Part shown: in pieces, positions 4,286 through 34,420 of the stretch
Numbering within the stretch: the first letter of the stretch is position 1
Layout of the letters: each line of letters starts with the position of its first letter
Source of the DNA: a virus
DNA: 36,720 bases
Reading direction: 5' to 3' (one strand)
IMG/VR virus record: IMGVR_UViG_3300049734_000427
Location: 1-36,720 of that record
Program-made: the position numbers and the translations under genes
Notes under the pieces: model-generated
Seen by the model: the letters and a program-made list of their open reading frames with translations, nothing else
Database searches by the model: none
What the model was told of the DNA's origin: nothing

Positions 4286-5169
4286 GGGGACAGATAGAGG
4301 AGGCGCGGAATGGTCCCCAGATCCGGTCGGCGCCAGCCCGGGAGGCGCACGGGCTGGACCGCAGAGAATAAGGCCGGATCGCATCCCAGGGCCGGCAGAA
4401 GGAGACGCAAGTCGACCAGGTCCGTGGCGCACGGGAAATCGAACCACCCATGGAGCGAGCGGCCCCCGGAATGGACGATGGCGCGGAGCTTCAGGCCGGC
4501 TTTTGAAAGCCAGCGGAGAATTGCCCCCTGACTCGGGAGATCCAGGCCGTCCGATTCCACCACCAGGAAGCGCCGGGCGCGGACATACGATTGCGTGCGC
4601 CGGTATTCCCCGGGCTTGAAGGAGGACGTGCAAATCCGCGGACCCGGGGGGAGGCGATCCGCGGCGAGCCATTCCTCCGCGGTTCGGAAATGATCTCGGT
4701 GCCAGGGCCGGCCGGAATCGCATAAATGGCCGATCCAGACCGTATCCCGCGGGCGAAAGAGGCGCAGAAGGCCGGCCGATTGATCCGCGAGCGCCTTGGG
4801 GATGGGCGCCGGCGAATCGGCCGGCATATCCGCGGGATCCCAGGGATGGGCTAAGATCTGGGGGCAGAGCAATTCCACGTCCTCGATGAGCGAGACGCGC
4901 CGGCGCCGGCTGGCCGGCCGCTGCTCGACCCGGACCACGCCGGGTGCCCGATAATCGCCCACCGCGCGCTCGCCAGCGATGGCCCAGACAAGGCTACGGT
5001 GATGGCGGTCTCCCGGATGAGCGACGCAAGCAAAGGCGCCGGATGGAAAAACGCGAAGGTGCACGCCGCGCCCATCCCCCCCGGCTTGGTGACAGACCGG
5101 GCATTGAGCGGTAAAGCCCCCATCCGCGAGCGGTCGAACATGCGCCAGGCGATCCCGGGACAGGGGCAT
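4282..5169 (-). CDS. Zinc-finger primase-like protein
   Basis: A 295-residue protein. Residues about 17 to 55 form a CHC2-like zinc-binding motif (CPVCHQAGGDGRGVHL, then FACVAHPGDRHH). The C-terminal half has the segment FLVVESDGLDLPSQGAILRWL followed by AIVHSGGRSLHGWFDFP. That segment resembles the catalytic core of archaeo-eukaryotic-type (PrimPol) phage and plasmid primases, where an acidic ESD and a later SGG.SLH.W motif are conserved. It would make RNA or DNA primers for the partner helicase encoded directly downstream (ATGA overlap). It starts 16 bases after the Pif1-like gene. The match is by motif only, and the exact primase family is uncertain. Confidence 0.7.
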   Translation of the reverse strand: MPLSRDRLAHVRPLADGGFTAQCPVCHQAGGDGRGVHLRVFPSGAFACVAHPGDRHHRSLVWAIAGERAVGDYRAPGVVRVEQRPASRRRRVSLIEDVELLCPQILAHPWDPADMPADSPAPIPKALADQSAGLLRLFRPRDTVWIGHLCDSGRPWHRDHFRTAEEWLAADRLPPGPRICTSSFKPGEYRRTQSYVRARRFLVVESDGLDLPSQGAILRWLSKAGLKLRAIVHSGGRSLHGWFDFPCATDLVDLRLLLPALGCDPALFSAVQPVRLPGWRRPDLGTIPRLLYLSP

Positions 5170-5185
5170 TGATGGGCGCCAGGAA

Positions 5186-6637
5186 TTACAAAAGGGTGGG
5201 CTGCGGTTCGGCCTCAATTGCCCCAGGAGCGGCCGCTGGCGCCGGCATGCAAGATTGACCGGGGGGCGCTTTCAAAATGGCGCTACGGGGCGCCGGGCGC
5301 GCCGGATCGGACATTGGCCGGCAGGGCGAGAGGCGTTGGTAGAATTCAATGGCCTGGGGCGAAACAAAGGCGCCGGAAGGCCATTCTTTAAGCGAGAGGC
5401 CTTCCAAGGTCCGGACCCGCGAGAGCGCCACATACGTTTGACCCGGCTCCCGGGCGGAGCGGATATCGATATGGGCGCGATCGATCGTCATTCCCTGCGC
5501 CTTGTGGATCGTGAGAGCCCAGGCCAGGCGGAGCGGGAGTTGACGGAATTCCGGCCCCCCATGATCCGGCCGGAGATGGCTCCAGGAATAGGAATGGGGG
5601 CTGACCCGGACCAGGTGCCCCCCTTCAGACAATTGGAGGAGGACCGCGCCCGGATCGCCGTCCCCGGGGGCTGTAATTTCCACCACGGTCGCCAGAGCGC
5701 CATTGACCACGTAGAGCTCCAGGCCGTCCTCCAGGAGATACGTTTTATTGACCAGGTGCATCACGAGAGCGCCCACCTTCAGGACCAGGGTGGCCGGCGC
5801 CAAAATATTTTTGGCGAGCGTGGCGACGGCCTCCGGGGATCCGCGGGTTTCGGCCTCGAAAGTAACCGGAGGCGCCTCGATATCGGAAAGCATGAGTTGA
5901 CACCACTTATTGACAGCCAGGTTGTGCGTCAGGAGGCGCGGCGTATCGCGGGAAGGATTCTCCAGGACCCGGGCGCGCAAGACCAGGACCTGGGGCGCGG
6001 AGAGGAGGCCGACCCGGACGGCCGCAAGGGCTTTGATAAAGGCCTGGTCGGATTGCCGGCGGATCGTTTCCAGGAGGATCGTTTTGTCGATGCATTGCCA
6101 GGCCTCGGTTTTGAAAGCCCAATCGTAAGGCCGGCGAGGATCCTTCCGGACGGGGGAAAGCTGCAGGAAATCGCCGACGAAAATTATCTGACAGCCCCCG
6201 AAGGGGCGCTGGTCGGAGCGGAGGAGCCGGAACCAATGATCGAGAAAGGAGAGGATCCGGCCGGGGAGCATGGAAACCTCATCGATGAGGACGCATTGAG
6301 CATTGCGGACCCGAGACTCGGCGCGGCGCGCGGCCGCATAGGGGCGCGCCAGGAGCCGGGCGGAGCAATCTTCAAAATCCTCCCCATCATGAGGACCCAG
6401 GTCGATGCCGGCCCATGAATGAATCGTGGAGCCCCCCACCAGGATTGCGGCGACGCCCGTGGAGGCCGTGACCGCCAGGCGGAGACCGCGCTCCTTGCGT
6501 TCGCGAATGAAGATCCGGGTGAGATAGGATTTCCCGACCCCCCCGGCGCCCGTCAGGAATACGTTGGATCCACCATGAGCCCAGATCAGGAAGCGCTCCT
6601 CATCGGTCACGGTCATTTCTGGCAAGGGATCATTCAT
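5186..6637 (-). CDS. Pif1/RecD-like SF1 DNA helicase
   Basis: A 483-residue protein with clear superfamily 1B motifs. Walker A is GAGGVGKS near residue 31, motif Ia is TASTGVAAI with the Pif1-typical HSWAGI following, and Walker B is VLIDEVSML. A GDFLQLSPV motif III comes next. The C-terminal motif is LAWALTIHKAQGMTIDRAHID, then YVALSRVRTLEGLSL. These are the signature motifs of Pif1 and phage Dda-type 5'-3' helicases. The last ~50 residues are Pro/Ala-rich and low complexity. The gene overlaps the small zinc-binding gene by eight bases and is followed by the primase. It probably helps replication restart or removes bound proteins; its precise role here is unknown. Confidence 0.92.
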   Translation of the reverse strand: MNDPLPEMTVTDEERFLIWAHGGSNVFLTGAGGVGKSYLTRIFIRERKERGLRLAVTASTGVAAILVGGSTIHSWAGIDLGPHDGEDFEDCSARLLARPYAAARRAESRVRNAQCVLIDEVSMLPGRILSFLDHWFRLLRSDQRPFGGCQIIFVGDFLQLSPVRKDPRRPYDWAFKTEAWQCIDKTILLETIRRQSDQAFIKALAAVRVGLLSAPQVLVLRARVLENPSRDTPRLLTHNLAVNKWCQLMLSDIEAPPVTFEAETRGSPEAVATLAKNILAPATLVLKVGALVMHLVNKTYLLEDGLELYVVNGALATVVEITAPGDGDPGAVLLQLSEGGHLVRVSPHSYSWSHLRPDHGGPEFRQLPLRLAWALTIHKAQGMTIDRAHIDIRSAREPGQTYVALSRVRTLEGLSLKEWPSGAFVSPQAIEFYQRLSPCRPMSDPARPAPRSAILKAPPGQSCMPAPAAAPGAIEAEPQPTLL

Positions 6638-6860
6638 GGGGCGCGCTACCAGGCATCAGGTGCCCGAATACATTCCGAACGCGTGCCCAATTAGCCTCGG
6701 CGCGCAACAATCTGGCCTTGGCAATTTCGAGCGCCTTCCGGGCGCAAGCTTCGCAACAATATTCCCGGCGCCCATTGAGCGGCCCATGCCAGTAGGCATC
6801 CAAGCTGCCGCACTCACAAGGGATCGCGCGCGGCCGCGAATAATAGACTCCACGTCTCAT
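6630..6860 (-). CDS. Small zinc-ribbon-like protein
   Basis: A 76-residue basic protein. An N-terminal CECGSLDAYWHG and a CCEACARKAL segment about 20 residues later form a four-cysteine zinc-ribbon-like pattern, followed by a long basic helix (ALEIAKARLLRAEANWARVR). The ATG at 6860 overlaps the stop of the preceding Cys-rich gene (ATGA), which decides the start over an upstream in-frame ATG. It lies in the replication operon. Binding of nucleic acid is plausible from charge and fold, but no function is known. Confidence 0.65.
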   Translation of the reverse strand: MRRGVYYSRPRAIPCECGSLDAYWHGPLNGRREYCCEACARKALEIAKARLLRAEANWARVRNVFGHLMPGSAPHE

Positions 6861-7060
6861 CGGTCGTCCGGAGGATGGCACTGCTCATCGTCCTCTTCTT
6901 CGCAATCCGGACAGCCCGGACACTCAGCCTCTCCGTGCCAATGGCAGACGCAGAAATCCCCGCCACAATAACAGAGGATCGTCCGGTAGCCTTCGCATCG
7001 CCTGGGGAGCGGCGCGTAGTAGGGATTTTCCACGCCGCACCAGCAACGGTTGACTCTCAC
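6857..7060 (-). CDS. Extremely Cys-rich small protein
   Basis: A 67-residue protein with about a dozen cysteines in CWC, CYC, CVC and CPGCPDC clusters and a few histidines, then an acidic tail EEEDDEQ. The pattern predicts binding of two or more zinc ions. The start is a GTG overlapping the stop of the gene before it (GTGA). Similar Cys-rich small proteins (CYCGGD.C.C...GE..C.GC.DC) occur in early regions of other phages, as far as I recall, without a known role. It is one of two adjacent zinc-binding small genes. Confidence 0.65.
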   Translation of the reverse strand: MRVNRCWCGVENPYYAPLPRRCEGYRTILCYCGGDFCVCHWHGEAECPGCPDCEEEDDEQCHPPDDR

Positions 7061-7266
7061 GTTTCCTTGGTCGCCGGCGTTCGCCCGGAATAGAAACGGT
7101 CCTGCTCCTCTTCGGTTCGTTTGATGAAAGCCATGAGCTCCGTGACCACCGCTGGCTCCAGGTGAATCGTGTTCGATGGAGCAAGCCCATTTTCCGTGGT
7201 CAGGGTAATCATGAAGCCATTGAATGAGGCGTAAACGCTGTCACCGAGATATTCTTTTTTAGGCAT
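7057..7266 (-). CDS. Conserved small phage protein of unknown function
   Basis: A 69-residue protein. The core MPKKEYLGDSVYASFNGFMI, then TLTTENGLAPSNTIHLEP, matches a small protein pattern (YLGDSVYA.f.g..i.LTTeNG....n.I.Lep.v...L..fi) that I recognise from early regions of many unrelated phages. It is beta-rich with a helical C-terminus. No biochemical function is known. It sits between the SSB-like gene and the Cys-rich gene in the replication operon; the GTGA overlap couples it to the latter. Confidence 0.75.
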   Translation of the reverse strand: MPKKEYLGDSVYASFNGFMITLTTENGLAPSNTIHLEPAVVTELMAFIKRTEEEQDRFYSGRTPATKET

Positions 7267-7281
7267 AGGTTTTTCCTTTTC

Positions 7282-8052
7282 TTAGTACGGAACATCATCC
7301 TCCTCATCCTCCCCGGCGCCGGCCTCATCCTCCTTGGCAAATTTCTTTTTGTATTGGCGGAGCGCACTAGAGAGCCGGCGATCGTCGGCCGAAGGTTTTT
7401 CGAGCTTTTCAAAATCCCGTTCCAGCCATCCGCCAATGAGCTTCTCGATATCTTCGCGAGAGAGATCCGCGAGCTCCTGGCCTTTATATTTCCCGACATG
7501 GACTTTGATTTTGCCAGGATGCGTCACGCCATCGGGCGATTGAGTAGGCTTCGGCCGATCCCCTTTTGATCCCCCGGACGTGCGCCGGAATTCCGATTGG
7601 CGCTCGTGCGGTTCCTCCTCATCGCGATCCTTCACGCGGACATAATCGCCGGACGGCAAGATTTCATCCTCAATCCGTTTGACGTAACAGATCCGCGCGA
7701 ACACGCCGCGGTCGTTTTCATCATGCTCCACCTCCATTTTCACCGAGACTCCCATGAGCTCTTCGGTTTCAAAACCGGCCGAGAGCTCATCCTTGGTGAA
7801 TTTGCGCCCCAGGAGCTTTTCGGCGAAGGGGCGAAAATTCGATTTTTCATGGGTAGAAGCCGTAAAATTCCGGCTCCGGATCATGTAGCGCTTCCCGTCG
7901 TCCATTTCGGTTTCGAGCTCGAACACGATTTGAAAAACCTCGCGCGGCCCCCAATCGCCTTGGACCGTTTTTAACGGCGTCACGTCCACCACCACGCCGC
8001 GGTGATCGCCGACCGGCGCTGGTTTGAATTCCGTCTTGGGAGTAATGACCAT
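7282..8052 (-). CDS. SSB-like DNA-binding protein with ExoX-C-like domain and acidic tail
   Basis: A 256-residue protein in three parts. Residues 1 to about 125 are beta-rich with an OB-like look (GVVVDVTPLKTVQGDWGPRE, then ELMGVSVKMEVEHDENDRGV, resembling phage DUF669/SSB-type proteins). Residues about 170 to 235 contain GKIKVHVGKYKGQELADLS, like the C-terminal domain of exonuclease X/DUF3820 (f.GKykG..l.dl...yl.WL). The end is very acidic and finishes DDVPY, which resembles the DDIPF tail by which bacterial SSB recruits partners. It probably coats single-stranded DNA during replication and recruits the nearby nuclease and helicases. The tail and the GKYKG motif are seen directly; the roles are inferred. 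Confidence 0.7.
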   Translation of the reverse strand: MVITPKTEFKPAPVGDHRGVVVDVTPLKTVQGDWGPREVFQIVFELETEMDDGKRYMIRSRNFTASTHEKSNFRPFAEKLLGRKFTKDELSAGFETEELMGVSVKMEVEHDENDRGVFARICYVKRIEDEILPSGDYVRVKDRDEEEPHERQSEFRRTSGGSKGDRPKPTQSPDGVTHPGKIKVHVGKYKGQELADLSREDIEKLIGGWLERDFEKLEKPSADDRRLSSALRQYKKKFAKEDEAGAGEDEEDDVPY

Positions 8053-10165: not shown

Positions 10166-10468
10166 ATGCCCAGACCCAAGCGGCGCTTCCCCGCGCCTAT
10201 CCATCTTAATCTCAACTGGGATTTCCGCGCTTGCTTGGACGAAATCGCCGAGCGCACCAATAAGCCTTACACCGAGCTCATTGAGGAGCTCATCCGCGCG
10301 CGGTACGGGCGCGTTCTAGGAAAGATTCGCGCGAAAGGACGACCACCCGACCCGCCTTCGCCTCCGCCATCTTTGCCCGCGCCAGGAGGCGCTCATGGCG
10401 ATCAGGGTGGAGCGCCCAAAAGACGGCCGTCTCCTCGGAGGACACGCGCCCCTGGTAATGCTTTTTAA
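10166..10468 (+). CDS. Ribbon-helix-helix regulator on the plus strand
   Basis: A 100-residue protein, one of only two plus-strand genes. The N-terminal half is an RHH domain: a basic strand (KRRFPAPIHLNLNWDF) then two helices (RACLDEIAERTNKPYTELIE and ELIRARYGRV). The C-terminal half is Pro/Arg-rich and disordered. It runs antisense into the last 180 bases of the integrase gene, so the tail codes on the strand opposite to int. It is divergent from the early operon and shares the control region at 10060 to 10131. A repressor of the early operon or of int is likely but unproven. Confidence 0.65.
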   Translation: MPRPKRRFPAPIHLNLNWDFRACLDEIAERTNKPYTELIEELIRARYGRVLGKIRAKGRPPDPPSPPPSLPAPGGAHGDQGGAPKRRPSPRRTRAPGNAF

Positions 10469-11567
10469 TGATCGCCTCCGAATTGCCGGCCCATTCGGCG
10501 ACCCGACCGTAGGAGCCTTCCAGCCGGAAGGCGTGCGAAATGGCCGTATGGCGCAGGACGTCGTGCGGCCATTTTTCCAGACAGCGCGCCTTCTTTCGGA
10601 GCTCATCCCAAAGGAGCCGGGATTTTTGAGGATCGCGCGTGGCCCCCGGGCAGAGCCGGAGCCAGGCGACGGCCGTGGGATGGAGAAACACCGTCCGCGG
10701 ATCGCCCGTTTTGGTTTGGGCGCCTTCCAGGCGGAGCTCGCCGTCGTCCAGATTGACCTGGCCGGCGCGAACCCGGATGGCCTCAGCCGGCCGGAGTCCA
10801 CCGAAAAGCCCCAGGACTACGAAGCGCAAAAATTTGCCCCCGCGAAAGCGCCGCGCGGCCACCAGGAGGCGCCGGACTTGAGCAAGGGAGAAGATCTCGG
10901 GCTCACCCGATTCTCCTTCCTCAATCGGGATGAGCGCCGTCGTCGCGGGATTGGAGGAGAGCCACCGGCGAGAGCGCTCCATGCACCAGGTGCAAAAGCG
11001 GGAGATGACACGCCGGACGTTGTTCCGCGTGACCGCGCCCGGCCACCGCTTCACCAGGGTGGCCTCGATCGATTCGGGCGTGAGCTGGTCCACCCGGACG
11101 TTGGCCGATTCGGCGACAAAGGAAGCCATGAAAGATTTGATGGTGGGCTTGGTTTTGGCCCGAAGGGGACAGGTGGCGAGATCGAGCCAGGCGTCGTAGG
11201 CTTTCCAGGCATCATCCAGGGTGGGGACATTGGATTTATGGAGCGCCACCTTGCGCGCATGGGAGAGCCAATGGTCGACGGCTTTCGTGAGCTCGGCCGG
11301 ATCTTCCAGCCGGGCAAAAGCCGATTCGGCCAGGCGGAGCTCCGGGATGGAGAGATGCGTGGGGCGCAGGGTGGCAAGCTGCTGAAGCCCTAGCCATTGA
11401 CTTTCGAGCTCCGTGGCCCGCGCCTGAGCGACCAGGGGGTCGCGGAAATTTTCCCGGACTCTGGTTCCGTCGCGTTGGATGCCGGAGACGCGCCACACCT
11501 TGCCCCCGGAAGGATTTTCAAACTCGGTGATTCGGAATCGGGCGCGGGGGGAGAGATCTTGTTTCAT
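10290..11567 (-). CDS. int: Tyrosine recombinase (phage integrase)
   Basis: A 425-residue site-specific recombinase. The catalytic domain shows Arg in LFGGLRPAEA, Lys in AQTKTGDPRTVFL, HxxR in WPHDVLRHTAIS, the Trp/His position in VAEWAGNS and the nucleophile Tyr in KKHYQGRVSSEE. An N-terminal arm-binding region and a SAM-like core-binding domain (about residues 130 to 215) precede it. The start at 11567 was chosen because the upstream extension to 11663 would run through the attP arm repeats. Int would insert the phage at the 3' end of a tRNA-Arg gene using attP immediately upstream. The HYQG.V...E...FWA ending resembles integrases from Verrucomicrobiota-type genomes, from memory. Confidence 0.95.
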   Translation of the reverse strand: MKQDLSPRARFRITEFENPSGGKVWRVSGIQRDGTRVRENFRDPLVAQARATELESQWLGLQQLATLRPTHLSIPELRLAESAFARLEDPAELTKAVDHWLSHARKVALHKSNVPTLDDAWKAYDAWLDLATCPLRAKTKPTIKSFMASFVAESANVRVDQLTPESIEATLVKRWPGAVTRNNVRRVISRFCTWCMERSRRWLSSNPATTALIPIEEGESGEPEIFSLAQVRRLLVAARRFRGGKFLRFVVLGLFGGLRPAEAIRVRAGQVNLDDGELRLEGAQTKTGDPRTVFLHPTAVAWLRLCPGATRDPQKSRLLWDELRKKARCLEKWPHDVLRHTAISHAFRLEGSYGRVAEWAGNSEAIIKKHYQGRVSSEETAVFWALHPDRHERLLARAKMAEAKAGRVVVLSRESFLERARTARG

Positions 11568-11580
11568 CGGGGGCAGAATT

Positions 11581-11866
11581 GCCAAAGGCGCCAAAGGATA
11601 CGGTAGGCATTTTACTTTGGCAAACGATTGGCAAATCTCCAAATGACCCGTTTTCATTGGCAATCCGGCGAGGGAAAATGTGCTCCGGAGCCGAAGGTTG
11701 TGGGTTCAAGCCCCGCCCCGCGTACCAGCAAAAAGCCCAGAAAAAGCGAGATTTGCAGGGGTTTTCCACCAAACTGAACGAAAGAGCATGTCAAGACCTT
11801 TTGCAACAATTGATGCCTTTGGCAAAGGTTTGGCAAATCCGGGCAAATTCTGGCAAATCCGGCAAA
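11581..11866. repeat. Phased GGCAAA boxes flanking attP (integrase/Xis arm sites)
   Basis: On the right of the tRNA-like core, GGCAAA starts at 11821, 11832, 11842, 11852 and 11861, that is every 9 to 11 bases on one face of the helix. On the left it occurs at 11619 and 11630, with a GGCAAT at 11659, and in inverted form (GCCAAA) at 11581 and 11590. Such arrays on both sides of a core are what lambda-type arm sites for Int or Xis look like. Apart from the core, 11568 to 11960 carries no gene. Confidence 0.75.
11683..11727 (+). other. attP core: 3' half of tRNA-Arg(CCG)
   Basis: The sequence folds as the 3' half of a tRNA. It has anticodon loop CTCCGGA (anticodon CCG), the 3' anticodon strand GCCGA and variable loop AGGTT. 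The T-arm is GTGGG/CCCGC with loop TTCAAGC, followed by acceptor strand CCCGCGT, discriminator A and CCA at 11725 to 11727. The 5' half is absent: bases before 11683 do not pair with it. Phages that integrate into tRNA genes carry exactly this 3' part so that the gene is restored. Its place just upstream of int supports attP. Confidence 0.85.
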
Positions 11867-14824: not shown

Positions 14825-15019
14825 CTACTTTTTGCCAGGACGCTCGTCCTTGGCTTGGACAGAGAACACCGAAACGGGGGGGCTAATCCACCGGAGCGCG
14901 ATAGCGCGCGTCCCAGCCAGGAAGGGGACCGGGACGGCCTCCTGCATGGTGGCGACCGATTCAGGCTCAAGGGGCATATCGTCCGTTTCACCCAGGTCCT
15001 GGGATCCTTTGGAGCTCAT
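14825..15019 (-). CDS. Small tail-tip protein upstream of J
   Basis: A 64-residue protein starting MSSKGSQDLGETDDMPL. Its core VPVPFLAGTRAIALRWISPP resembles the short P.P.l.GtRr.a..Wi.p segment that opens J-like tail-tip proteins in related phages. Here this segment is a separate gene: it has its own stop, and the J-like gene restarts nine bases later behind a strong ribosome binding site. The ATG overlaps the stop of the NlpC/P60 gene (ATGA). It may be a distal tail assembly factor or a split-off N-terminus of J. Confidence 0.65.
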   Translation of the reverse strand: MSSKGSQDLGETDDMPLEPESVATMQEAVPVPFLAGTRAIALRWISPPVSVFSVQAKDERPGKK

Positions 15020-15507
15020 GAGGGATTGCCGGCTATGAAGATTTCCACGTCCCGACCGATGAGGCGCGGGCGCCAGGCGCCGGCCATGCGTTTCATCCAG
15101 ACCGGCTGCAGACAGGGAGAGATCCGCGCCCCCAGGTTTTCGACGGAGGAAACCACCCGCCCCCCGGAAAGGAGGACCGCAAGGTGGTGGATGCAATGGC
15201 CCAGGCGAAAGCCCAGGAGATCCCCCGGCTCGATGGCGTCGAGCGCCGCGACCCGTTCAAACCAATTCCGACCTTCGCCCCGATCGAGCCACTCCTCCAT
15301 GACGCTATGATTTTGAGCCCGGGACCAGCCCACCGGCGCCATGGGGATATCCATGTCCGGGAGCCAGCCGGCGTCCCGATAGACGACAAAGGCGAGCATG
15401 TGGCAGGAGACACCGGCGCCTTTGACCGCGGAGCGCTCGCAAAACGGCGTGCCTTCCCATTCTTTCGCCGCGGCCTCCAAGCGACTAATTGCAACCGGGG
15501 ACTTCAT
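15016..15507 (-). CDS. NlpC/P60-family tail peptidase
   Basis: A 163-residue protein. The catalytic Cys is in GAGVSCHMLAFVVYRDAG (about residue 35), and the His lies in the DLLGFRLGHCIHHLAVLLSG block (about 100 to 118). These are the two blocks that define NlpC/P60 cysteine peptidases. In siphoviruses such proteins (lambda gpK-like) are part of the tail tip and cut peptidoglycan locally during DNA entry. The position between the DUF2163-like tail protein and the J-like protein is the normal one. It overlaps both neighbours by four bases. Confidence 0.85.
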   Translation of the reverse strand: MKSPVAISRLEAAAKEWEGTPFCERSAVKGAGVSCHMLAFVVYRDAGWLPDMDIPMAPVGWSRAQNHSVMEEWLDRGEGRNWFERVAALDAIEPGDLLGFRLGHCIHHLAVLLSGGRVVSSVENLGARISPCLQPVWMKRMAGAWRPRLIGRDVEIFIAGNPS

Positions 15508-15734
15508 CGGCGTTCCAGAAGATGCCGGTCCAATTTCCGCGCCACGATGGCCGCGAGATCCGGCCGCACCATGGCCTCAAGATCCATGGTGCTTTGCACC
15601 ACGAGCTGGCGCGAATAAGCGGTGGCCGACCCATAGCGCTTGGCGACCGGAGCGGCGCCGGCTTTCCGGAGGAAGGGAAGGGCGGCGCCAGCCTTCAGGA
15701 GCCAGGAGAAAAGACCGCGGCGTGAAGTTTTCAT
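15504..15734 (-). CDS. 76-residue protein: twin-arginine-like N-terminus plus capsid-derived segment
   Basis: The N-terminus (MKTSRRGLFSWLLKAGAALP) looks like a twin-arginine export signal: SRRGLF followed by a hydrophobic stretch. From about residue 31 the protein reads KRYGSATAYSRQLVVQS, then an EAMVRPDLAAIVAR stretch. This is nearly the same as KRYGAATAYSRQLVVQS and EAFVRMDLAAVVAR in the major capsid protein of this phage. At DNA level 27 consecutive bases are identical (15591 to 15617 and 33094 to 33120), with more similarity around them. The segment corresponds to the start of the capsid spine helix and could not form a capsid domain alone. It begins five bases after the preceding tail gene, whose last codons contain seven A residues, and overlaps the NlpC/P60 gene. 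Function unknown. Confidence 0.7.
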   Translation of the reverse strand: MKTSRRGLFSWLLKAGAALPFLRKAGAAPVAKRYGSATAYSRQLVVQSTMDLEAMVRPDLAAIVARKLDRHLLERR

Positions 15735-15739
15735 GAATC

Positions 15740-17788
15740 CTATTTTTTTCCGCCACCGGACGGTTTGCCGATTGGCTGCACGATCGGGTTGGTGGCCGGA
15801 ATTTCAGGGAAACCACCGAACCGGGTAAAGTTATTGAATTTGCCGGCCGGATTCCCGGTGGAATTCCAGAGCTTACAGGTGGCCGCGCGCCCATCGCATC
15901 CGGGGATGAGCGTGACCGTTTGCCCCACCAGGACCTGGGGGGAGAGGACCCGGTCGAGATCGAGCGTGATCGAGCCGGAGTCGATGGCCGTGCTCCTGGA
16001 AATGAAGGAGGCCGATTGACGATCCCCCCGCGCGATGACCCCCAGGGCGAACCAATCGGCAAAGCCGAAGCCTTGAGGGATCGAGCCCCCGGCCGGTGGC
16101 TCGATCGAATTGACCGTGACCTTCGCGCCAGAGACCGCGGAGACATTTGCAGAGAAGCGCCAGGCTTCCCGATCCAGGCCGCATCCGACCCCATACACGT
16201 CCCAATTACAGACCGTTTCCATGAGGATCGTGGGAATAGCGCGATCAAAGAGACTAGAGGCGCCGGCCGCCGTCGCTTGGAGGAATGGCCCGTCGAATTC
16301 CACGCTTCGCACCTGGCCCGAAAAGACCCGGCGCGGATTGATCCCTTGCGTCCCCTGCGGTTCGCAAACTTCGACCACGAGCCTCACGGCCGTATCGAGC
16401 CGGCCGGGGAGGAAAGCGGCCAATGGACAGGCTTCCCACCAGCGGAGGCTCAAAGAGATTTCGTCCCGATCGAGCCGGATCGTTTGCCGGATTTCGGAAT
16501 GATCGCATGGGCGAGAAACGAAAGCTTGGCTTTGCACCACCAGGTCCCGTTCAAAGGACGTGAAGCGATCCACCGAGACCACCCCACCGCGGTCGGTTTC
16601 CATGGTATAAAGCCAGGCGCGATCCAGGAGCCGGCCGATGGTGGCGCCGCGGACCTCCTCCGATGGCAAGACGTCCTCACCGGCGACTTCGCGCCAGGCG
16701 ATCCGCGCCTCGGCGATCGCCTGCGTATGGAAAAGGAGCTCCGCGGTCGCGCGCGCATGGCGCGCGAGCATGAGCGGGAAAAGGACGGCCTCGTCCTTTT
16801 CCCAGGCGCGAGCCAGGGGCGCGGCCATGGTGACCACGTTCCCGGCCACCCCAGAGATCCGGCCCACCTCGGAGATCCCAAAGGAATTCTGGATCCGGAG
16901 AGAGAGCTCCGGCGCCAGGCCGGCGCCGGAGACCACGGGAAGGGTGGTGGCGCCAGCGGCGACGTCGGCGGAAAGGCGCGTAGGCGCGGCCAGGGATGGC
17001 GTCCAATGGCCTCCGGCATTGCCCCCCTGCAGGACCCACCAGGCGAAGAAATCAGCGGCCTGAGAGGCCGTAGAGAGCGTTACCAGGCCTTCCACGGGGC
17101 GCTCGGCTTCTTGCGGATAGATGGCCGGCGCCGTTTCCCGGCCCGGACCCAGGTCCCGGCGTTCGGCGTCAATATCCGCGGTGGCCGATCGGGTGGCGTC
17201 CGTCCAATTGACCGGCCAGGGAAAAACAGGCGGCGTCGATCCATCGGGGAGAGCCGGCCCGGGCGCGAACGTGGTCGAGGGAGGCACGAGCGCATAAACG
17301 GCCGGCCCATCTTCCCGGACGGAGAAGGCGACCCGGAACAATTCCGGCGTAAGGGCGCTCGATTCCGGGAGCCGGAGGAAGGAGCCCCAGAGCGCCGGCG
17401 CGATCCAATCCCAGAGCAAGGGATCCCCGATCGCGGAGCCAATGGCCCACTCGGAGGCATCGTTGCGCCAGGCGACAAAGAGCCCCCCCACAAGGGGCGT
17501 GGCCGTAAATTCCGTGCAGACCGCCATAGGCCAAACGGGGGCGATGATGGGCGCCCCCAGATATTGCTGCAGACCCGCCAGGAGAGACTGCGCTTGATCG
17601 GCCCGGAGGACCGATTGCCAATCCATTTCCGCGCGGAGCGTGGCGCCTTCGGCGCGCCGGCTTTCCCGGCCAGTAAGCCCGCGCTCGATCGAGACCGGGA
17701 CCGTGAGGCGGAGCGTGGGTTGAGCGACCCAGTCGGCCGGATGATCCACGAGCCAGGCCGGGAGGCCGTCGACCGTCACGCTACGCAT
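15740..17788 (-). CDS. Minor tail protein, DUF2163/BR0599-type
   Basis: A 682-residue late protein. The C-terminal ~250 residues carry the features of phage DUF2163/BR0599 proteins. These are SGQVRSVEFDGPFLQATAAG, a cysteine-containing VCNWDVYGVGCGLDREAW, and the end LIPGCDGRAATCKLWNS followed by NNFTRFGGFPEIP. The N-terminal part is beta-rich and Trp-rich and probably a distal-tail domain. The ATG at 17788 lies within the last codons of the tape measure gene (CTCATGCGTAG overlap), which fixes the start. Such proteins form the tail distal end together with the NlpC/P60 and J-like proteins encoded downstream. It ends GGGKK in seven A residues, a possible slippery site. Confidence 0.85.
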   Translation of the reverse strand: MRSVTVDGLPAWLVDHPADWVAQPTLRLTVPVSIERGLTGRESRRAEGATLRAEMDWQSVLRADQAQSLLAGLQQYLGAPIIAPVWPMAVCTEFTATPLVGGLFVAWRNDASEWAIGSAIGDPLLWDWIAPALWGSFLRLPESSALTPELFRVAFSVREDGPAVYALVPPSTTFAPGPALPDGSTPPVFPWPVNWTDATRSATADIDAERRDLGPGRETAPAIYPQEAERPVEGLVTLSTASQAADFFAWWVLQGGNAGGHWTPSLAAPTRLSADVAAGATTLPVVSGAGLAPELSLRIQNSFGISEVGRISGVAGNVVTMAAPLARAWEKDEAVLFPLMLARHARATAELLFHTQAIAEARIAWREVAGEDVLPSEEVRGATIGRLLDRAWLYTMETDRGGVVSVDRFTSFERDLVVQSQAFVSRPCDHSEIRQTIRLDRDEISLSLRWWEACPLAAFLPGRLDTAVRLVVEVCEPQGTQGINPRRVFSGQVRSVEFDGPFLQATAAGASSLFDRAIPTILMETVCNWDVYGVGCGLDREAWRFSANVSAVSGAKVTVNSIEPPAGGSIPQGFGFADWFALGVIARGDRQSASFISRSTAIDSGSITLDLDRVLSPQVLVGQTVTLIPGCDGRAATCKLWNSTGNPAGKFNNFTRFGGFPEIPATNPIVQPIGKPSGGGKK

Positions 17789-20237
17789 GAGGCGTCCTCC
17801 AGCCGGCCCGGGACATGGCGTCAATGGCGATGGCCTCGATATCGTCCCGGCTTGCGGCGATCCAGGCGCGGCGATCCAAAAAGACGTTCAGCTTTTGATT
17901 GAGCGTGCGCCCCCCGGTCGAGGGATCCGACCCCTGCGAGGAAGGCGCCATGCCAGCGGCCGCGGCCTCAAACCAATCGAGCCCCAGGCGCGAGACCGAT
18001 GAGGCCGGCACCACGTACTCGCCTCGATGCACCACGCCAGCGGGCGCCTTGCGCGGCCCGGCGCCCGTAAAGCCCCCGGATTCGAAGGAGCCAAGAGCGG
18101 CCATTGCCGCCAGGAGGCCGGCGATTCCGACCGCGGCCGCGACCCCCCATGAGGAGATTGAGTCCATGAGCGCCACCGGCGCCTTGGCGGCGAGCTCCCC
18201 GGCCGCGGCCGTCTTTTCGACGGAGCTCACCAGGAGCCGGCCGACGATCCACTCGGCGAACATTCGGGCGATGGCGTCCACAACGGAATTGAGGATCCCG
18301 CTGGCGATGGAGCGGAGCGCTTGCCCCCAGGTCATCGTCATGGAAAGGAGACCGCGGATTCCACCGGCGATCGAATCCACCGCGCCCCCGATAAAGGTGG
18401 ACATGGCGCGGCCGACGATCTGCGCCGACGTCCCTAACTGCATCATCGCCTCCTGGATCCCGGCGACGATCCCCAACCGGCCCCCGCCCATTTGCGCTTC
18501 AAGCGCCGCGCGCGCGCGGAATTCATCGAATTGAGCCTGGGTACCACCCGGGTAGGTGGATTCGAATTGGCGCCGGCGTTCTTTCGCCTGATCTTCGTAA
18601 ATCTTTTGGATTTCCTTTTCGATTTCACGCCTCTGAGTCCGCGCCGTCAGTAGAGCTTTTTCGGCTTTCAAAGCGTCTTGATCCGCCACGCCTTTTGCTT
18701 CGGCCAAATTAAATTCTTCGCGCCGAACCTCCTCCAATTCCATCGCGATCGAAAGCTGACGTTGGAGGACGAAATTGCGGCGCTCGTCAGTCTCGGCAAA
18801 ACGCAATTCAGCCTCGGCCCATTCCCGCTCCATTTCCAACCGCTCCGCACGAGTAACGGATTCAGGCGTCGAGAGGCCTCCTCCTCCAGACACCTCCTCA
18901 AAGAGATTGTCCTCCGGCCGATCCTTGGCCTCCTCCTGGAAATCCGCCAGGGCTTGCCGGGCGGTATTGATTTGATCCGAGAGCTCCCGGCCCCATTCGC
19001 CACCGAGCCAGCCGGGCGGAACAAACCAGGTTAAAAACTCCAGCCATTCAAGCTTCAGATAAAGGACCGCGCGCGTGAGATGCGTTTCGATCGTTTCGCC
19101 GGCGACCGTCACCTGGTTTAAAAATTTGCCGATCTCCCACCCGGCGATTGCCGCGCCCAATCCCAGGAAGGCCGTCGAGAGCGCGCCCACGATCGTGATG
19201 AGGCGCGTCCCCGGCCCCATAAAGACCCGGATGGCGGCCGTCCCATCCGTGACCACCGCTTTCCAGAAGATCCGCCCCTGCGTAATCGCATTGGCAAAAT
19301 TGGTCCCCGTCACCAGGACAAAGAGCGCGCGCAAGGGATCGATAATGAAACGGATCCCGCGGGCGATGGCCGGCCCGAGCATGGCGGCGCCGATGGCGCT
19401 CAAGCCCACCGCGACCTTGCCAAGATTATTCCCCACCGCTTCCCCCACCGCGCCCCCCAGATCATTAAAGAAGCGAATCACGTTAGGATGCTTCGCGGAA
19501 AATTCATCGATGGCCGCGCTCGCCCGGTCGATGCCATCAGCGAGGCGCTGCCAGAAGCGCTCCGTGCCCCCGGTGAGGAGCCGGCCGAAGGATTCCTCCA
19601 ATTCCCCCAGGGAGACCACGAGGCGAGCCAGCCCACCTTTGGCGCCGAATTCGGCCGCGGCCTGACCACCGAAAGCGGCCTGCATTTTTTGCATGAGCTC
19701 GGTGGTGTTGCGCGCCCGGATATTGATTCGATCGAGTTTGATCTCCTCACCATCGAGCGCGCGCGCAACCTGCTTGGCCGCGGTGGTGGCGTCGGTCCCC
19801 ATGGCCGCGGCGAGATCGAGCACGAGCGGCGTCAAGCGCTTCACCACGTCGGCCTGGGCGCCGAAGGAAAGGAGGATCCGCTGCACGGCCAGGACCGATT
19901 CGTCAGAGACCCCCGTGAGGCGCTGCAGGGCTTGAGCCTGCTCGATGAATTCGGCGGTGGTGGCGTTGGCCGATTGGCCGGTGGAAATCAGGGAGCGCCC
20001 CAATTGCGTCACGGCGACACTCGACTCTTGCGCCGCCTTGAAGAAGCGAGAGAGCGCCGCGCCACTGAAAACCGCGGCGCCAATTTGCGCCCAATGGGAG
20101 AGCGCGGAGGATCCGGATTGAAGCTGCTTATTAAAGCGCTCCATGGCCTCGGAGCTTCGGCGGAAATGGGAGACGAGCGCCTGCGCGCCCGTGACGGCTA
20201 CCTTAATGGAAACCGCATTTTCGCTAACGTTCGCCAT
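17781..20237 (-). CDS. Tape measure protein
   Basis: An 818-residue protein, the longest purely helical product in the tail operon. The N-terminal region has VSIKVAVTGAQALVSHFRRS and a TAEFIEQAQALQRLTGVSDE segment typical of tape measure proteins. Several hydrophobic stretches occur (FVLVTG, LSTAFLGLGAAIAGWEIG, AVGIAGLLAAMAALGSF). A long Glu/Arg coiled coil spans about 450 to 570. The C-terminus has FESGGFTGAGPRKAPAGVVH, then RGEYVVPASSV, the GEyV.pa. signature common to these proteins. It sets tail length and enters the cell with the DNA. Strong ribosome binding site AAGGAGGATCCCATG. At about 1.5 A per residue a tail near 120 nm would be expected. Confidence 0.93.
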   Translation of the reverse strand: MANVSENAVSIKVAVTGAQALVSHFRRSSEAMERFNKQLQSGSSALSHWAQIGAAVFSGAALSRFFKAAQESSVAVTQLGRSLISTGQSANATTAEFIEQAQALQRLTGVSDESVLAVQRILLSFGAQADVVKRLTPLVLDLAAAMGTDATTAAKQVARALDGEEIKLDRINIRARNTTELMQKMQAAFGGQAAAEFGAKGGLARLVVSLGELEESFGRLLTGGTERFWQRLADGIDRASAAIDEFSAKHPNVIRFFNDLGGAVGEAVGNNLGKVAVGLSAIGAAMLGPAIARGIRFIIDPLRALFVLVTGTNFANAITQGRIFWKAVVTDGTAAIRVFMGPGTRLITIVGALSTAFLGLGAAIAGWEIGKFLNQVTVAGETIETHLTRAVLYLKLEWLEFLTWFVPPGWLGGEWGRELSDQINTARQALADFQEEAKDRPEDNLFEEVSGGGGLSTPESVTRAERLEMEREWAEAELRFAETDERRNFVLQRQLSIAMELEEVRREEFNLAEAKGVADQDALKAEKALLTARTQRREIEKEIQKIYEDQAKERRRQFESTYPGGTQAQFDEFRARAALEAQMGGGRLGIVAGIQEAMMQLGTSAQIVGRAMSTFIGGAVDSIAGGIRGLLSMTMTWGQALRSIASGILNSVVDAIARMFAEWIVGRLLVSSVEKTAAAGELAAKAPVALMDSISSWGVAAAVGIAGLLAAMAALGSFESGGFTGAGPRKAPAGVVHRGEYVVPASSVSRLGLDWFEAAAAGMAPSSQGSDPSTGGRTLNQKLNVFLDRRAWIAASRDDIEAIAIDAMSRAGWRTPHA

Positions 20238-21878: not shown

Positions 21879-22331
21879 TTAGGAATAGTAAACGTCGATA
21901 TGGATTTTTTGAAGATTCGCCGGCTGATTAGGGACCACGTCCATGTAGAGAACGATTGCATTCGCCAGAGTGAGCCTACTTCGGAGCGTGACCGATTGGA
22001 CCGTACTGGCGCCAACGTTTCGCCATTGAATCGTGATCCCCGTGTAGGGAGGGACGATGAGAGCCACCGAAGCAAACCAGGAGGCCGGCCCACCCGATGT
22101 ATCTTTTTTGAATGCGGTGAAATTAAAGGCACTGCTCAGGAGCGCGTCGGCCGTTCCGCCTTTGAATTCGACGTCCGCATAAGCGTGAAGCGTTCCGGAC
22201 GGAGGAGCCTTCGGATCCCCGTCAATTTTAACCGGATCGCCGGCGATGATCGTCACCCAGGATTTTTCAGAAGCGACGTTGGCGCCCACCACCGTGACCG
22301 CGCCGCCTTGCAAATCAGATAGGGTAGGCAT
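21879..22331 (-). CDS. Beta-rich late protein, possibly fibre-associated
   Basis: A 150-residue protein, mostly beta strands with regular hydrophobic alternation (DLQGGAVTVVGANVASEK, then AYADVEFKGGTADALLSSAF, then YTGITIQWRNVGASTVQSV). Its ATG overlaps the stop of the giant fibre gene (TAATG), so it is translated straight after it. Such a small beta-sandwich protein after a fibre could be a fibre-tip, chaperone or decoration protein; the sequence does not decide. Confidence 0.55.
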   Translation of the reverse strand: MPTLSDLQGGAVTVVGANVASEKSWVTIIAGDPVKIDGDPKAPPSGTLHAYADVEFKGGTADALLSSAFNFTAFKKDTSGGPASWFASVALIVPPYTGITIQWRNVGASTVQSVTLRSRLTLANAIVLYMDVVPNQPANLQKIHIDVYYS

Positions 22332-25300
22332 TAGGGGGAAAGTACGATTTGCCCAGAGCCAGTAAGCTGCGCCCAGACAAACTCATTGCCACCGGCGCCG
22401 ACCAGGACCCAGGCCTTATTAGGGTCGGTATCGTGAGGGAACTTCGGAAAGACCACCCCCAGCCCCCCCGTCGTCCGGTAAATGAGCTCCGTGGAAATAT
22501 CGATCCGCGGCGTCACCACGTAGCCCCCGGCCGTAATATTATTAGAGGCGGAAAGATTGCCCACCGTCTCCAGGCTCCCGGAAACGGTCACCAGGCTTTG
22601 CTCCTGATTTTCGACCATCATTGAATTTTCCAATTCCTTCCCGCCTTTCCATCGGGCGATATAATTTTGGGTACCGCTGCCGGTGAGATCCCCGGTCCCA
22701 CCACCCGCGGGCGGTACGCGCCAAACGCGATCCCCATAAAGGACCGTCGTGCCATCCGCGGTTCCGCTTCCCAGGGCTGACGTCGGGATATCCGCGGCGA
22801 CCAGATACCGGAACGTCGGGACATTCGCCGGAGCCGCGGATGGCCCGGCAAAGAAGGAATTGGGCGCGACGCCAGTGTTCCATGAGAAGGTGAGCGTCAC
22901 GTCCCCGGACGTGCCGGCCGTGGGAGCGACCAGGAGCGGGAAAGCGGTGGAGGAGCCTTTAATGGTCCGGACATACGTGGTCGGAGCCAACCAGGATTGG
23001 AGCGTCGCCTGGCTGAACGCCACCAGGGTCGTGTCCGCGGAGAGCCGGCCGTAAACCTGGAAGGGATTGGACTGCGCGCTCGGCGCCGGCGTGAAAGTGA
23101 GGCCGGCCAGATTCGTCACGCCGGCGACAGAGAGCCCACCCGTGAGGCTCAGAGCGCGGCCGGAGAAATCCCCATTATTCGTGAGCGCCAGGCTCCCGGC
23201 GACGGAGAGCGCTGACCCGGATTCGGTCACGATGGAATCGGTGATCTGGGAGGAGCTCGCCCACTTGGTCAATTTGCCCGTGGTGATGGGCGCCAGGCCG
23301 GCGATCCCGGCCGACGTGAGGACGCCGGTCACGGTATCGAGGGAGAGCGGCGCCGTGACCGTGATTTCCTGGCCGGCGCCATTCGAATTCGCATAGCGCC
23401 CCAGGAGGCGCTGCGCCGTCATATCGAGATCGCCCGGGACATGCCGGTGGACGAAAGGTGCGTAGGTATTGGGCGCGATCGAGAGCGTGTAGGTTTTATT
23501 CGGCAAATCCCGCACGGCCCCCAGGGGCGCCGAAAGGATCGCCTTAAACCAGCCGGCCGTGTCGCCGAAATACGGTTCGGCCGTGGGAGGATTGGTGAGC
23601 CCCCCGCCAGGATTGAGCCAATTAAAGAGCTCCGTGCGGTCAATCGATTTGAACCGGACCCGGCCGTTCCCATCGGCCGCTTCCATTCCAAAGATCCGCA
23701 CCACGCTGGTGGAGATCATCGAAGGGGGCGTGGTTTCCAGGCGGAGGATCCGCTTGGATTTATCCGGATCGGTCGCCAATTCCAGCGACCAGGGCGAATC
23801 CGTGAGAGAGGAGACAGAAGCCGGCGCTTCCACCGTGCCGGTCCAGATTGGAAGGTAACCGGAGGCGCCCGTGCCGGAGACATTGCCGGAGCCGAGATCC
23901 GAAGTCATCGCGACCGTTCCGCTTTTATCAGGGAAAGACCAGGTGCGCTGCCCCGTGACGGCCGTCAGATCAAACCGGCCATGAATGATGCTAGGGCTGA
24001 AAGCCTTGTAGTAGGTGAGATGACCCCCAGGGGTGAATCGATATTGCGGCCCGGCGACGCTTTCGCCGGCGCCATCAGCCTGCGCCTGCGTGAGCCCAGA
24101 ATGCAAAAAGAGAGAGACCCAATTTAGGGTATTGGTAGAGCCCACGACATTCACCGATAAACCACCCATGGCGTAGGTGCCGGCGTTATTATTTCGCAAC
24201 CGAATATCGCGGATCCATGATCCAGAAGAATTGATGGTGCCCGTCACCCCAAATGCAGGATTGCTGGCGCTATTCATTCCAAGGCGAACACCGTCCGCTT
24301 CGATCCCGCCGACCTTGGATTGAAAACCGGAGCCCGTATCCACGAGAAAGATGGGTGTCAATTCAATGTCACTTTCCACGCCATCCGTAGGCATGGATTT
24401 AATATTATTAGCGTAGTAAGCATCATCCACCACCGTGACCGTCGTGGCCGTGGAATCCCAGACCGTGCCGGATCCGGAATAACCGATGAATGCGTCGACA
24501 ATCACGTTAGGATAATTCCAATTGCCCGTGGAAGATTTGATGGCAAAGCACCAGCGATTATCCGTCTTATCAAAACCGATCTTAACCTTGCTCACGACCG
24601 TAGACCCACCATTCACTAGCGCCTTTCCATTGATCCAATATTTGCGCGTATCCGAGAGCCAATAAATGTAACCACTGACCTCGACCAAGGTGTCCATGGC
24701 GTCCAGCCTATAATCCATGAGGCGCACGGTCCAGCGGCCCATGGTAAATGTGCCGGAGGAAGTAGCGCTCCCCGTCGTCGCCGGCATTTTCACCAGGATA
24801 TTTCCCGTTTGATTGGAGACGCCGACGTACCCGCCCCCGTGCCCAATAAAATATTTCGCGCTATTGGTGACCACATAGGGACGGATTCGCACGTTCGCGG
24901 CGCCGACCCGGTAAGATGCATCCAGGCTTCCCGTGACAGACATTGAGACAGCCGAAGTCACCAGGGATCCGGAATCGGTCAGGTTCGAATTCCCGAGCAC
25001 GCTTCCGCTCGTCCATTTCGGAATGACGTTGGCCGATCCGGTTCCCGGACCCGTGACCCATCCCGGATTGAGCCAGGCCTGGAAGGAGGCCTTGGTCATC
25101 GATTCCACGCGCGCGGAGACAGACTGCGGCGATTGAGCGGTGAGAACAAACGTGTTAGCGTCACCGGAGGCCGCGGGCGCCTTCGCGGAAATTTCATCGG
25201 AAAGGAATAAGCTGCCCCCGGCCGTCAGATAGGCTTTGACCACGTCCGCGGTCGAGGCCTCGATGGCATGCCAGGAGGCCGAAGGATTGTCCCACCTTTT

Positions 25301-28300
25301 TGATCCGGAGATTTCCTGGTCCGTGGCGAGCGTGACAAAGCCAGAGAGATCCGGCGCCGGAACATTGATGGTCCACGATCGATCGGCGGAGAGATCTTGC
25401 GTGTTGGGAGCGGAGACGGTGGCGATTCCGGAGCCCAGGAAGGTGAGCGCGCGCGTGATCGGAACCACATTTTTTGTGAGCGCCACCGTCCCCGTATCAT
25501 CCGGCATCGTCCAGACCCGGCCGACCGTGACCCCACCCATTGCGAACCACCCGTAAACGGATGAGGAAGGATAAAAGGCGTAACCACCCGCGGGCGTGAA
25601 TCGGTACTGCGGAAATTGATTGTACCCGCTGAGATCCACATTCGCCTTGGTCGTATTGGAGACCTGGTAGAGCGCCGTGTACGTGATCGCGCCCGTGCCC
25701 GAATTGCCATAAACGGCCAAGCCACTCATCCCCCAGATCGATCCACCGTCGTTGCTTCGAATTTTGAAATCCCGCGCGTAGCCACCGGCCCCAACGATGG
25801 TGCCGAAGATGCCATAGGTGGGAGAATTAATCCCGATTGTGACGCCATCGATCGTCAATCCACCTACCTTCGTTTGAGCGGTGGAGGACGTATTGAGGAA
25901 ATCCGCGAAAGGCTTGGAGCGCAATTGAACGGCGCCCGATTGAGGATTGGCGTCCCATACGCCGACGTAGGCCGTACTAGAGCTCGCCGGCGCGATCACC
26001 GAGAAATTGCCACCCACCGTGAGATTGCCGGTGAGATCGAGCGAAGCGCCATAGAGCGCGCCAGAGCGCAAGACCTTGAAGGCCGTAGGATTCTCCTTCG
26101 ATGCCATCCAAAACATCGGGAAGGTTCCAACGTTCCCGGAAAGGTCGATTTCGATTGCCGTGAATCCGGCCGGGATATCCGCAGGCTCCGTAAAGGCAGA
26201 GAGCGTCCAGCCATTCAAATGATAATTTTCGTGCATCCAAACCGAAGGCGTGACCACCACCGTGGCGCTATCCAAAATTTCAATATCCACCGCACCACCG
26301 GCGTAAGTAGAGGCCGTCAGCAAACGGATTTTCCGAATGAATTGAGAGGAGGAATACTTGTGGTTTTCCAGAAGCTGCAAGGTCGGATGACCCCCGAATG
26401 ACATGCCGGCAAAAAAGACCAGGTGCTGGTGATTGCCGGAGGCCGGATCCGAAACAATAAACCTGGCCGCGGCCCGGGATCCCCCGGAGCCCGCGGAATT
26501 ATCCAAGGGATTTTGATAGGCGATCCGGTACCATTTGAAGGAAGGCGCCGGATTGACCGCGAGCGAGCGCGAGGCAAAAGCGATCGGAGCGACCTGCTGC
26601 GTATTGGCCTGGAGGACGGCGCCACTAAATTGCAAACCATACCCGAGCGAGATGAGCTCCGCGGCGCCCGTGCCCGCGGTGGTGCGCCCCAGGAGACGCG
26701 CCGTCGTGACATTATTGATTTCGCCAAAGGCGTGCGTATGGCCGGGCAGGCTGAGAGACGTCCACGATTGCCAGGCGGTCCCATCATATTTCCGCACCTT
26801 AAGGTCGATGGGCGCCGTGCCGGCCGCGCACCAGACCTGAAAGGATCCGGCGCCAGCGGCCGCGCGTTCAAATTGGATGCCCCCGCCAAACTCGCCCGGA
26901 TAATTCGTGGAGGCCGTCGAATTGATGATGGCTAGGAGCCGATTCGTCGCCGGAGCCACATTCGCATCCAGCCAATTGCGCGCTTCAATCTGCGGCGCGG
27001 AAAGGACCGTATGCGTCCAGGCGAGATTTGAAGAAAGCGCCTGCGCGCCAGCCGGCGAGATCGAGAGATGAAGCGAATTCCCGGAGGCATGGCTGATCGT
27101 TCGGGTGACCGGGACATAATCGGCCGCGAGTCCAAGCCAGGCTTTGAGGCCGGCGAGATCCGCAGATTTAACGTCCTGCGCCGCGGAGGCCGCACTCGTG
27201 TCGACCACGAGCACGAGGGAACCAGCGGCCAGGGTCGCCGCGGAGGCCTTCAGAGCGAGCGCGGCAGGACCGGCATTAAAAATATGCTTCCCGGTCCAGG
27301 TGGGCGCGATCGCCTGCGAGAGCGCCGGCGCGGAGTCGGAACGCATGAAGGTGGTGGCCGACCCATTGACGGCCGCGAGGCCGACCACGGCCGTAGGATT
27401 GGCCGCGGACGGGACCGCCAGGTCAGATTTTAGGTTCGCCTTGGACCGCGAAAAAAGGACCACCCGGCTCAATCCGTCCGTGGGATCCTGTTTCCAGACC
27501 GGCGCATGCGTCCATGAGGACGTGGCGTCGTAGCCATTACAGGCGATGGCCTCCGCAGAGAGCGTCGCCGTGGTCGCGAAGGATTGGACAAAGAGAACGC
27601 CAGGCGCGGAGCGCTGCAAATAAATATCCGGAGCGCTTGCCCCGTCGCTAAAATAGAGAGAGCCCCCGGCCTGGAAAGCGACATGCGGCCAGGTTTGGCC
27701 GGCCACCGTTTTGACCCCCAGGACCGTCGCGGACGTATCGGAATTGACGAAGGTATGGGAGCCCGTCCAAAGCGGCACAATCGCCTGCGAGAGCGCCGGC
27801 GCGGCGTCCGATCGCATGAAGGTGGAGGCCGAACCATTGACGGCCGTGAGGCCGACCGCGGCCGTGGGATTGGCCGCGATCGGGACCGCCAGGTTGGTCT
27901 TTAGATTCGCGACAGACTGCGTTTTGAAGATCCCCCCGTCAGAGACCCAGACCGGCAGAGCGGCCGCGGACGTCGCCGTGGTACTCGATGCCATCGAACC
28001 AAACACCTTGAAGAAGATCCCAGGGTCGGGATCCGCGCCGACGCCGACGCTCGTCCCATTATCCCGGATCACCGAAGATCCCAGATTGGAAGCGCTCGTC
28101 CAAAGAGCCAGGCGCCCCTGCGTGCCTGATCCCGTAATGTCACCCCCGCCACCACCACCCGCCCCGCCAAAGGGCGGCGAGAAAGCGAGGATAGTGAAAC
28201 CAGAAGCGACGAAAGAAGAATGAATAGTGGTCGAGCCCGTCGACGTCCGCGCCCATATTTCCCAGGCGATCGGGACGTCCAGGCCGGGCGTTAATTCCGT

Positions 28301-34419: not shown

Positions 34420-34420
34420 T

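Follow-up and report, generated by a model that had tools for sequence, protein, structure and literature searches.

A small, old capsid-derived gene in the tail operon of one phage lineage

Proteins that alter or block virion assembly are known from phage satellites and prophages. Ccm, a capsid homologue encoded by SaPIbov5, redirects the assembly of phi12 capsids (PMC8569155), CpmB and Rcm, SaPI redirectors of capsid size, are described as resembling the scaffold protein and competing with it (PMC12409344), and Tab, the carrier of which protects itself, is a blocker of tail assembly from a Pseudomonas prophage (PMC10884400). Here we describe ORF76, a 76-codon gene in the tail operon of a phage genome of which we analysed a 36,720-nt stretch (hereafter, the window). 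Like Ccm, ORF76 is a capsid homologue carried by a mobile element and encoded apart from the capsid gene, outside the head genes; however, Ccm is a satellite-encoded capsid subunit found in pentameric capsomers, whereas ORF76 keeps about 43–65 capsid residues, belongs to the phage’s own tail operon and has a capsid domain too incomplete to enter capsomers (76 aa; 43 of 280 profile positions). Residues 31–73 match the HK97-type capsid family (PF05065, phrog_617) with its conserved positions kept, but most of the fold and the protease are missing, and the protein cannot form a capsomer alone. CpmB and Rcm, which change capsid assembly, are small helical proteins as ORF76 is predicted to be, but they are scaffold-like, are not described as capsid-derived and are set apart from ORF76 by that description. 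Tab is likewise phage-encoded and blocks the virion assembly of another phage, but it acts on tails, targets the tape measure protein and is not known as capsid-derived. Literature and database searches turned up no described gene of the ORF76 design, in agreement with the initial annotation of this DNA, which was made from the sequence alone and knew of no such phage gene.

ORF76 (translation MKTSRRGLFSWLLKAGAALPFLRKAGAAPVAKRYGSATAYSRQLVVQSTMDLEAMVRPDLAAIVARKLDRHLLERR), its parts, its neighbours and the matching capsid gene are arranged as follows.

15016–15507, minus strand: downstream neighbour, a phage NlpC/P60-type tail peptidase (TIGR02219, 1e-9, below the curated cut-off; PF00877, 1.7e-4; phrog_329)
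15504–15734, minus strand, stop codon included: ORF76, capsid-derived small gene of 76 aa (translation, capsid homology, codon usage)
15513–15641, minus strand: clearly capsid-derived part of ORF76, residues 32–74 (about 43), homologous to the presumed start of the long helix of HK97-type capsids
15591–15617, minus strand: 27 nt identical to 33094–33120 of the capsid gene (codons Y40 to S48)
15642–15734, minus strand: N-terminal part of ORF76, residues 1–31 (SRRGLF motif, broken hydrophobic stretch, 30-nt internal repeat)
15740–17824, minus strand: upstream neighbour, baseplate hub / BR0599-type (gp84-like) tail assembly protein (Pfam PF09356, 1e-10, and PF09931, 3e-8; phrog_778)
32488–34578, minus strand: resident protease and major capsid fusion gene, 696 aa (Pfam Phage_capsid, 1e-32, and Peptidase_S78, 2.5e-7)
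33030–33144, minus strand: capsid segment matching the capsid-like half of ORF76 (repeat search)

The frame of ORF76 is complete: its ATG, which lies 5 nt behind the stop of the hub gene, is preceded 4 nt upstream by a ribosome-binding-like AGGA, and its stop shares an ATGA overlap with the ATG of the peptidase gene. Codon usage favours this frame (LLR of +13.0 vs −8.7 to −23.0 in the five other frames), and in the N- and C-terminal parts, each taken separately, it scores top of the strand’s three. The earlier description of an intact, closely spaced tail-operon gene is borne out. The encoded protein would be very basic (pI of 11.5, net charge of +10), and some of its peptides, such as QLVVQSTMDLEAMVRPDLAAIVAR, are distinguishable from the capsid. 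No promoter-like sites were found near ORF76 in the region searched, and defence-system models gave no match to the protein.

Other parts of the window show the setting of this operon. Close to the tail-gene end lies an integrase gene (10290–11663, minus strand; phrog_1, 6.5e-27), because of which we regard the phage as probably temperate, and genes for a P4-type primase, a Dda/RecD-like helicase and an NGO0469-like replication initiation protein occupy 2819–8052 (minus strand). Two 59-nt direct repeats (2037–2095 and 2465–2523, 83% identical), each with the inverted repeat CCGTTAG...CTAACGG and with hairpins nearby (2104–2135 and 2539–2703), possibly mark a regulatory or replication site. Between the head/connector and tail genes, a 2,529-aa gene (22331–29920, minus strand) has no PHROG match, a sub-threshold match to the Pfam repeat DUF5907 (E of 0.035) and a 160-nt internal repeat (27291–27450 and 27762–27921, 83% identical).

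Within its own genome, ORF76 matches only itself and the capsid (E of 6e-17, well past chance), and an unprompted repeat search pairs 15527–15641 with 33030–33144 (115 nt, 77% identical). It also matches PF05065 (Phage_capsid) over residues 31–73 with an E value of 1.7e-4 (21.5 bits, somewhat under the gathering score of 24.2), covering profile positions 73–115 and not the complete capsid domain, and the major head protein family phrog_617 with 8.7e-5; among 50,697 phage records, major capsid proteins were the sole matches. The resident fusion gene, which itself belongs to PHROG 617 (1e-123) and has a solved homologue in 8gta chain A (E of 3.7e-36), is on sequence comparison a member of the family from which ORF76 came. 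From the established HK97 fold and the alignment to 8gta, we take the homologous capsid segment to be where the long (‘spine’) helix begins. The capsid copy reported in the initial annotation is therefore confirmed, and the similarity, given there as about 33 residues, is real and longer, with about 43 residues clear and residues 10–31 perhaps to be added. The 27 identical bases are exact as claimed; such a run is ordinary for that codon stretch, the resident and L005 capsids having a 29-nt run in common. Among the best 80 of 433 viral-contig relatives and the other fetched loci, no complete short ORF76-like frame was found outside its own population; the shortest other matches in those loci were frames cut at a contig or locus end, followed by frames of at least 300 codons.

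Comparison of the insertion site indicates that ORF76 is an addition to the tail module. In the closest relative, IMGVR_UViG_3300012232_000025 (G001; protein identity of 66% for the hub, 76% for the peptidase and 63% for the tail tip), the hub stop overlaps the peptidase start with no gene in between, and in three distant relatives (L132–L134) the hub and peptidase genes are adjacent with nothing between them; relative to these one close and three distant genomes, ORF76 is, by sequence comparison, an insertion. A second capsid-like fragment in G001 (6767–6940) scored 13.7 bits, contains a stop codon and was judged to be chance. Searches with the hub, peptidase and tail-tip proteins for further ORF76-bearing lineages returned only its own population and G001 as close relatives, and ORF76 was found in one lineage only. 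A metagenomic contig and a gene seen in a single population could raise the suspicion that the fragment was joined to the tail operon by mis-assembly, as the initial annotation had allowed. However, another contig from this population (IMGVR_UViG_3300045967_000250) carries the insert and both joins, at 99.98% identity over 11,907 bases (2 mismatches; the compared stretch excludes the capsid gene), and mis-joining of the resident gene cannot yield ORF76, because 23% of bases differ. A chimera is thereby largely refuted, as far as sequence can tell, and we give it next to no credence.

The same divergence bears on age. Over 39 codons, ORF76 is 76.9% identical in DNA to the resident capsid, 73.5% to that of G001 (L004) and 70.9% to L005, vs 79.5% between the resident and G001 capsids. 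Judged by these identities, ORF76 has diverged from the capsids roughly as far as the capsids of separate phage species have from one another, and at this distance the recent internal copy postulated earlier has to be rejected. Six residues of ORF76 (R33, Y34, A37, A39, V45 and V46) each occur in just 6–9% of 66 capsids but in every member of the resident clade, and they place its source within the resident capsid’s own clade. Placement by a codon model agrees in preferring a position beside the resident capsid or on its stem, with L006 and L007 strongly disfavoured. ORF76 is a real and old capsid-derived small gene of one phage lineage.

The origin of the N-terminal part is less clear-cut. 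Residues 9–31 align end to end, with one gap, with the capsid segment preceding KRYG; this alignment is beaten or equalled by 1 of 8,596 control windows from proteins of the same genome and was reached by 0–39 of 2,000 shuffles. At the DNA level, this stretch scores scarcely better than codon shuffles, L006 being the exception, identity to the capsid falls sharply at KRYG, and no DNA source for residues 1–31 was found in the window and the loci searched. Residues 10–31 may be worn capsid sequence, to judge from the protein alignment far more than from the DNA, or they may be a new start. The new N-terminus claimed earlier is thus called into question by the protein comparison and hardly so by the DNA. 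This part also contains an imperfect 30-nt internal repeat (LLKAGAA / LRKAGAA), an AxA-like AGA at residues 25–27 and the motif SRRGLF, which fits RR.[FGAVML][LITMVF] (that is, the TatP motif as quoted in PMC6085387) and not the full SRRxFLK consensus. TATFIND seeks an uncharged region past the arginines (PMC6085387); in ORF76, K14 and R23–K24 interrupt the hydrophobic stretch, and the uncharged runs left are only 7 and 8 residues long, so the uncharged region is lacking. NCBIfam signal models gave no match to ORF76, and the motif pattern alone is known to yield 15% false positives among cytoplasmic proteins with RR (PMC1182353). An ORF from a MAG (L047, MKFSRRAIISGGIKAGAALPF), considered as a possible homologue, is longer and unrelated, and alike only in its Tat-like N-terminus. 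On this sequence evidence a Tat signal is doubtful: of the fusion to such a signal that had been proposed, the arginine motif stands and the hydrophobic stretch does not.

In the capsid-derived part, ORF76 retains all 14 of the positions within residues 41–69 at which 66 capsids show conservation of 90% or more, and the chance that the nine ORF-specific changes over 39 positions would miss every conserved one is 0.0096. The comparison of dN/dS between the two copies that the initial annotation had suggested gave a mixed and rough result: in our own codon model, omega is 0.15 on the ORF76 branch vs 0.02 in the capsid background (about sevenfold raised), and in the two best placements it differs both from 1 (LRT of 4.1–10.1) and from the background (LRT of 6.4–9.7). 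These figures are approximate, as synonymous change has reached saturation over the 43 codons and part of the branch may date from service as a functional capsid in some phage outside the sample. Because such a period would likewise leave kept positions and a low omega, they do not prove selection on the fragment as such. The net charge of residues 10–74 is +5 in ORF76 vs 0 or −1 in capsids. An AlphaFold2 model of ORF76 hints at a helix over residues 37–75 with weak confidence (mean pLDDT of 58.7); for the resident capsid domain, the model (pLDDT of 31) was too poor to show the spine helix and was discarded.

The likeliest single reading, which we hold only tentatively and well short of even confidence, is that ORF76 is a partial capsid mimic that modulates or competes in head assembly; we place it first because ORF76 held on to the positions common to capsids, whereas its remaining positions changed and turned basic. 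The gene, a piece of capsid sequence from the phage’s own capsid clade that sits between the tail hub and tail peptidase genes, would be translated late, at the same time as the tail proteins, and yield a small and very basic product. The C-terminal 40 residues would adopt the capsid-like long helix, which could bind capsid subunits, or a partner that recognizes that helix, and binding would then modulate or compete with head assembly of the phage itself or of a co-infecting relative. Homology to capsids only, the 14 kept positions, an omega below 1 and coding-type codons suggest such a role at the sequence level, as do the clade-specific residues, the insertion relative to relatives and the weakly predicted helix, and the capsid homologue of SaPIbov5, Ccm, suggests it by analogy (PMC8569155); for a phage-encoded block on the assembly of another phage, Tab is the precedent (PMC10884400). 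Against it, selection would disfavour a phage gene with a product that poisons the capsid of the same phage, barring a difference in dosage, timing or target, just one lineage carries the gene, and the codon test comprises few codons with saturated synonymous change. That a self-derived capsid-helix fragment in the phage’s own tail operon is a functional assembly modulator or competitor, whether of its own heads or of those of co-infecting relatives, we consider unlikely as it stands.

A functionless relic (that is, capsid DNA of a relative or of the phage itself, pasted in by illegitimate recombination, in frame by luck and harmless) is a serious contender, although still a doubtful one. The restriction to one lineage, with absence from one close and three distant relatives, and the raised omega are what a relic would show; the open frame and the kept capsid positions could come from the donor capsid, and the population’s two contigs, with 2 mismatches in 11.9 kb, offer no within-species test. 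However, three features count against a relic: the genome is compact and yet the frame is complete, with its ATG, AGGA and ATGA overlap; each half shows coding-type codon usage; and the homologous segment has a charge shift that is unseen in the clade’s capsids. Its place between two baseplate/tail-tip genes and its overlap with the next start codon would suit an exapted tail accessory that has lost the capsid role and is co-translated as a small tail-tip or tail-assembly factor between hub and peptidase; yet the same module does without ORF76 in close and distant relatives, and a tail role does not demand the conserved capsid positions that were kept, which makes this reading distinctly unlikely.

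Export is improbable. A membrane-directed or exported protein, with a Tat signal or anchor and a capsid part acting in the envelope (for example, in exclusion), would agree with the RRGLF match to the TatP motif (PMC6085387) and with the resemblance to the N-terminus of the unrelated MAG ORF, but the broken hydrophobic region (longest uncharged run of 8 residues), the signal models without a match and the false-positive rate of the bare motif (PMC1182353) all speak against it. More improbable still is a decoy that binds a capsid-sensing defence protein of the host and prevents its triggering. By analogy, such a target might exist, given that newly synthesized capsid protein sets off CapRel-SJ46 (PMC9712102) and that the major head protein triggers Thoeris in staphylococci (PMC11312562); however, the product of a gene in the late tail operon would not appear before the capsid does, and the form sensed by Thoeris is stated to be hexameric (PMC11312562), which a 76-aa fragment could hardly imitate.

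Capsid homologues that steer assembly are already known from satellites, as Ccm illustrates. If ORF76 does act as a self-derived assembly modulator or competitor, it would be the phage analogue of host restriction genes built from viral capsid sequence, and a free-standing helix fragment retained in a phage’s own tail operon would mean that phages are able to make a separate gene from part of their main structural protein. As a small, testable protein, ORF76 offers a way to ask whether head assembly is regulated or sabotaged by partial mimics of the capsid.
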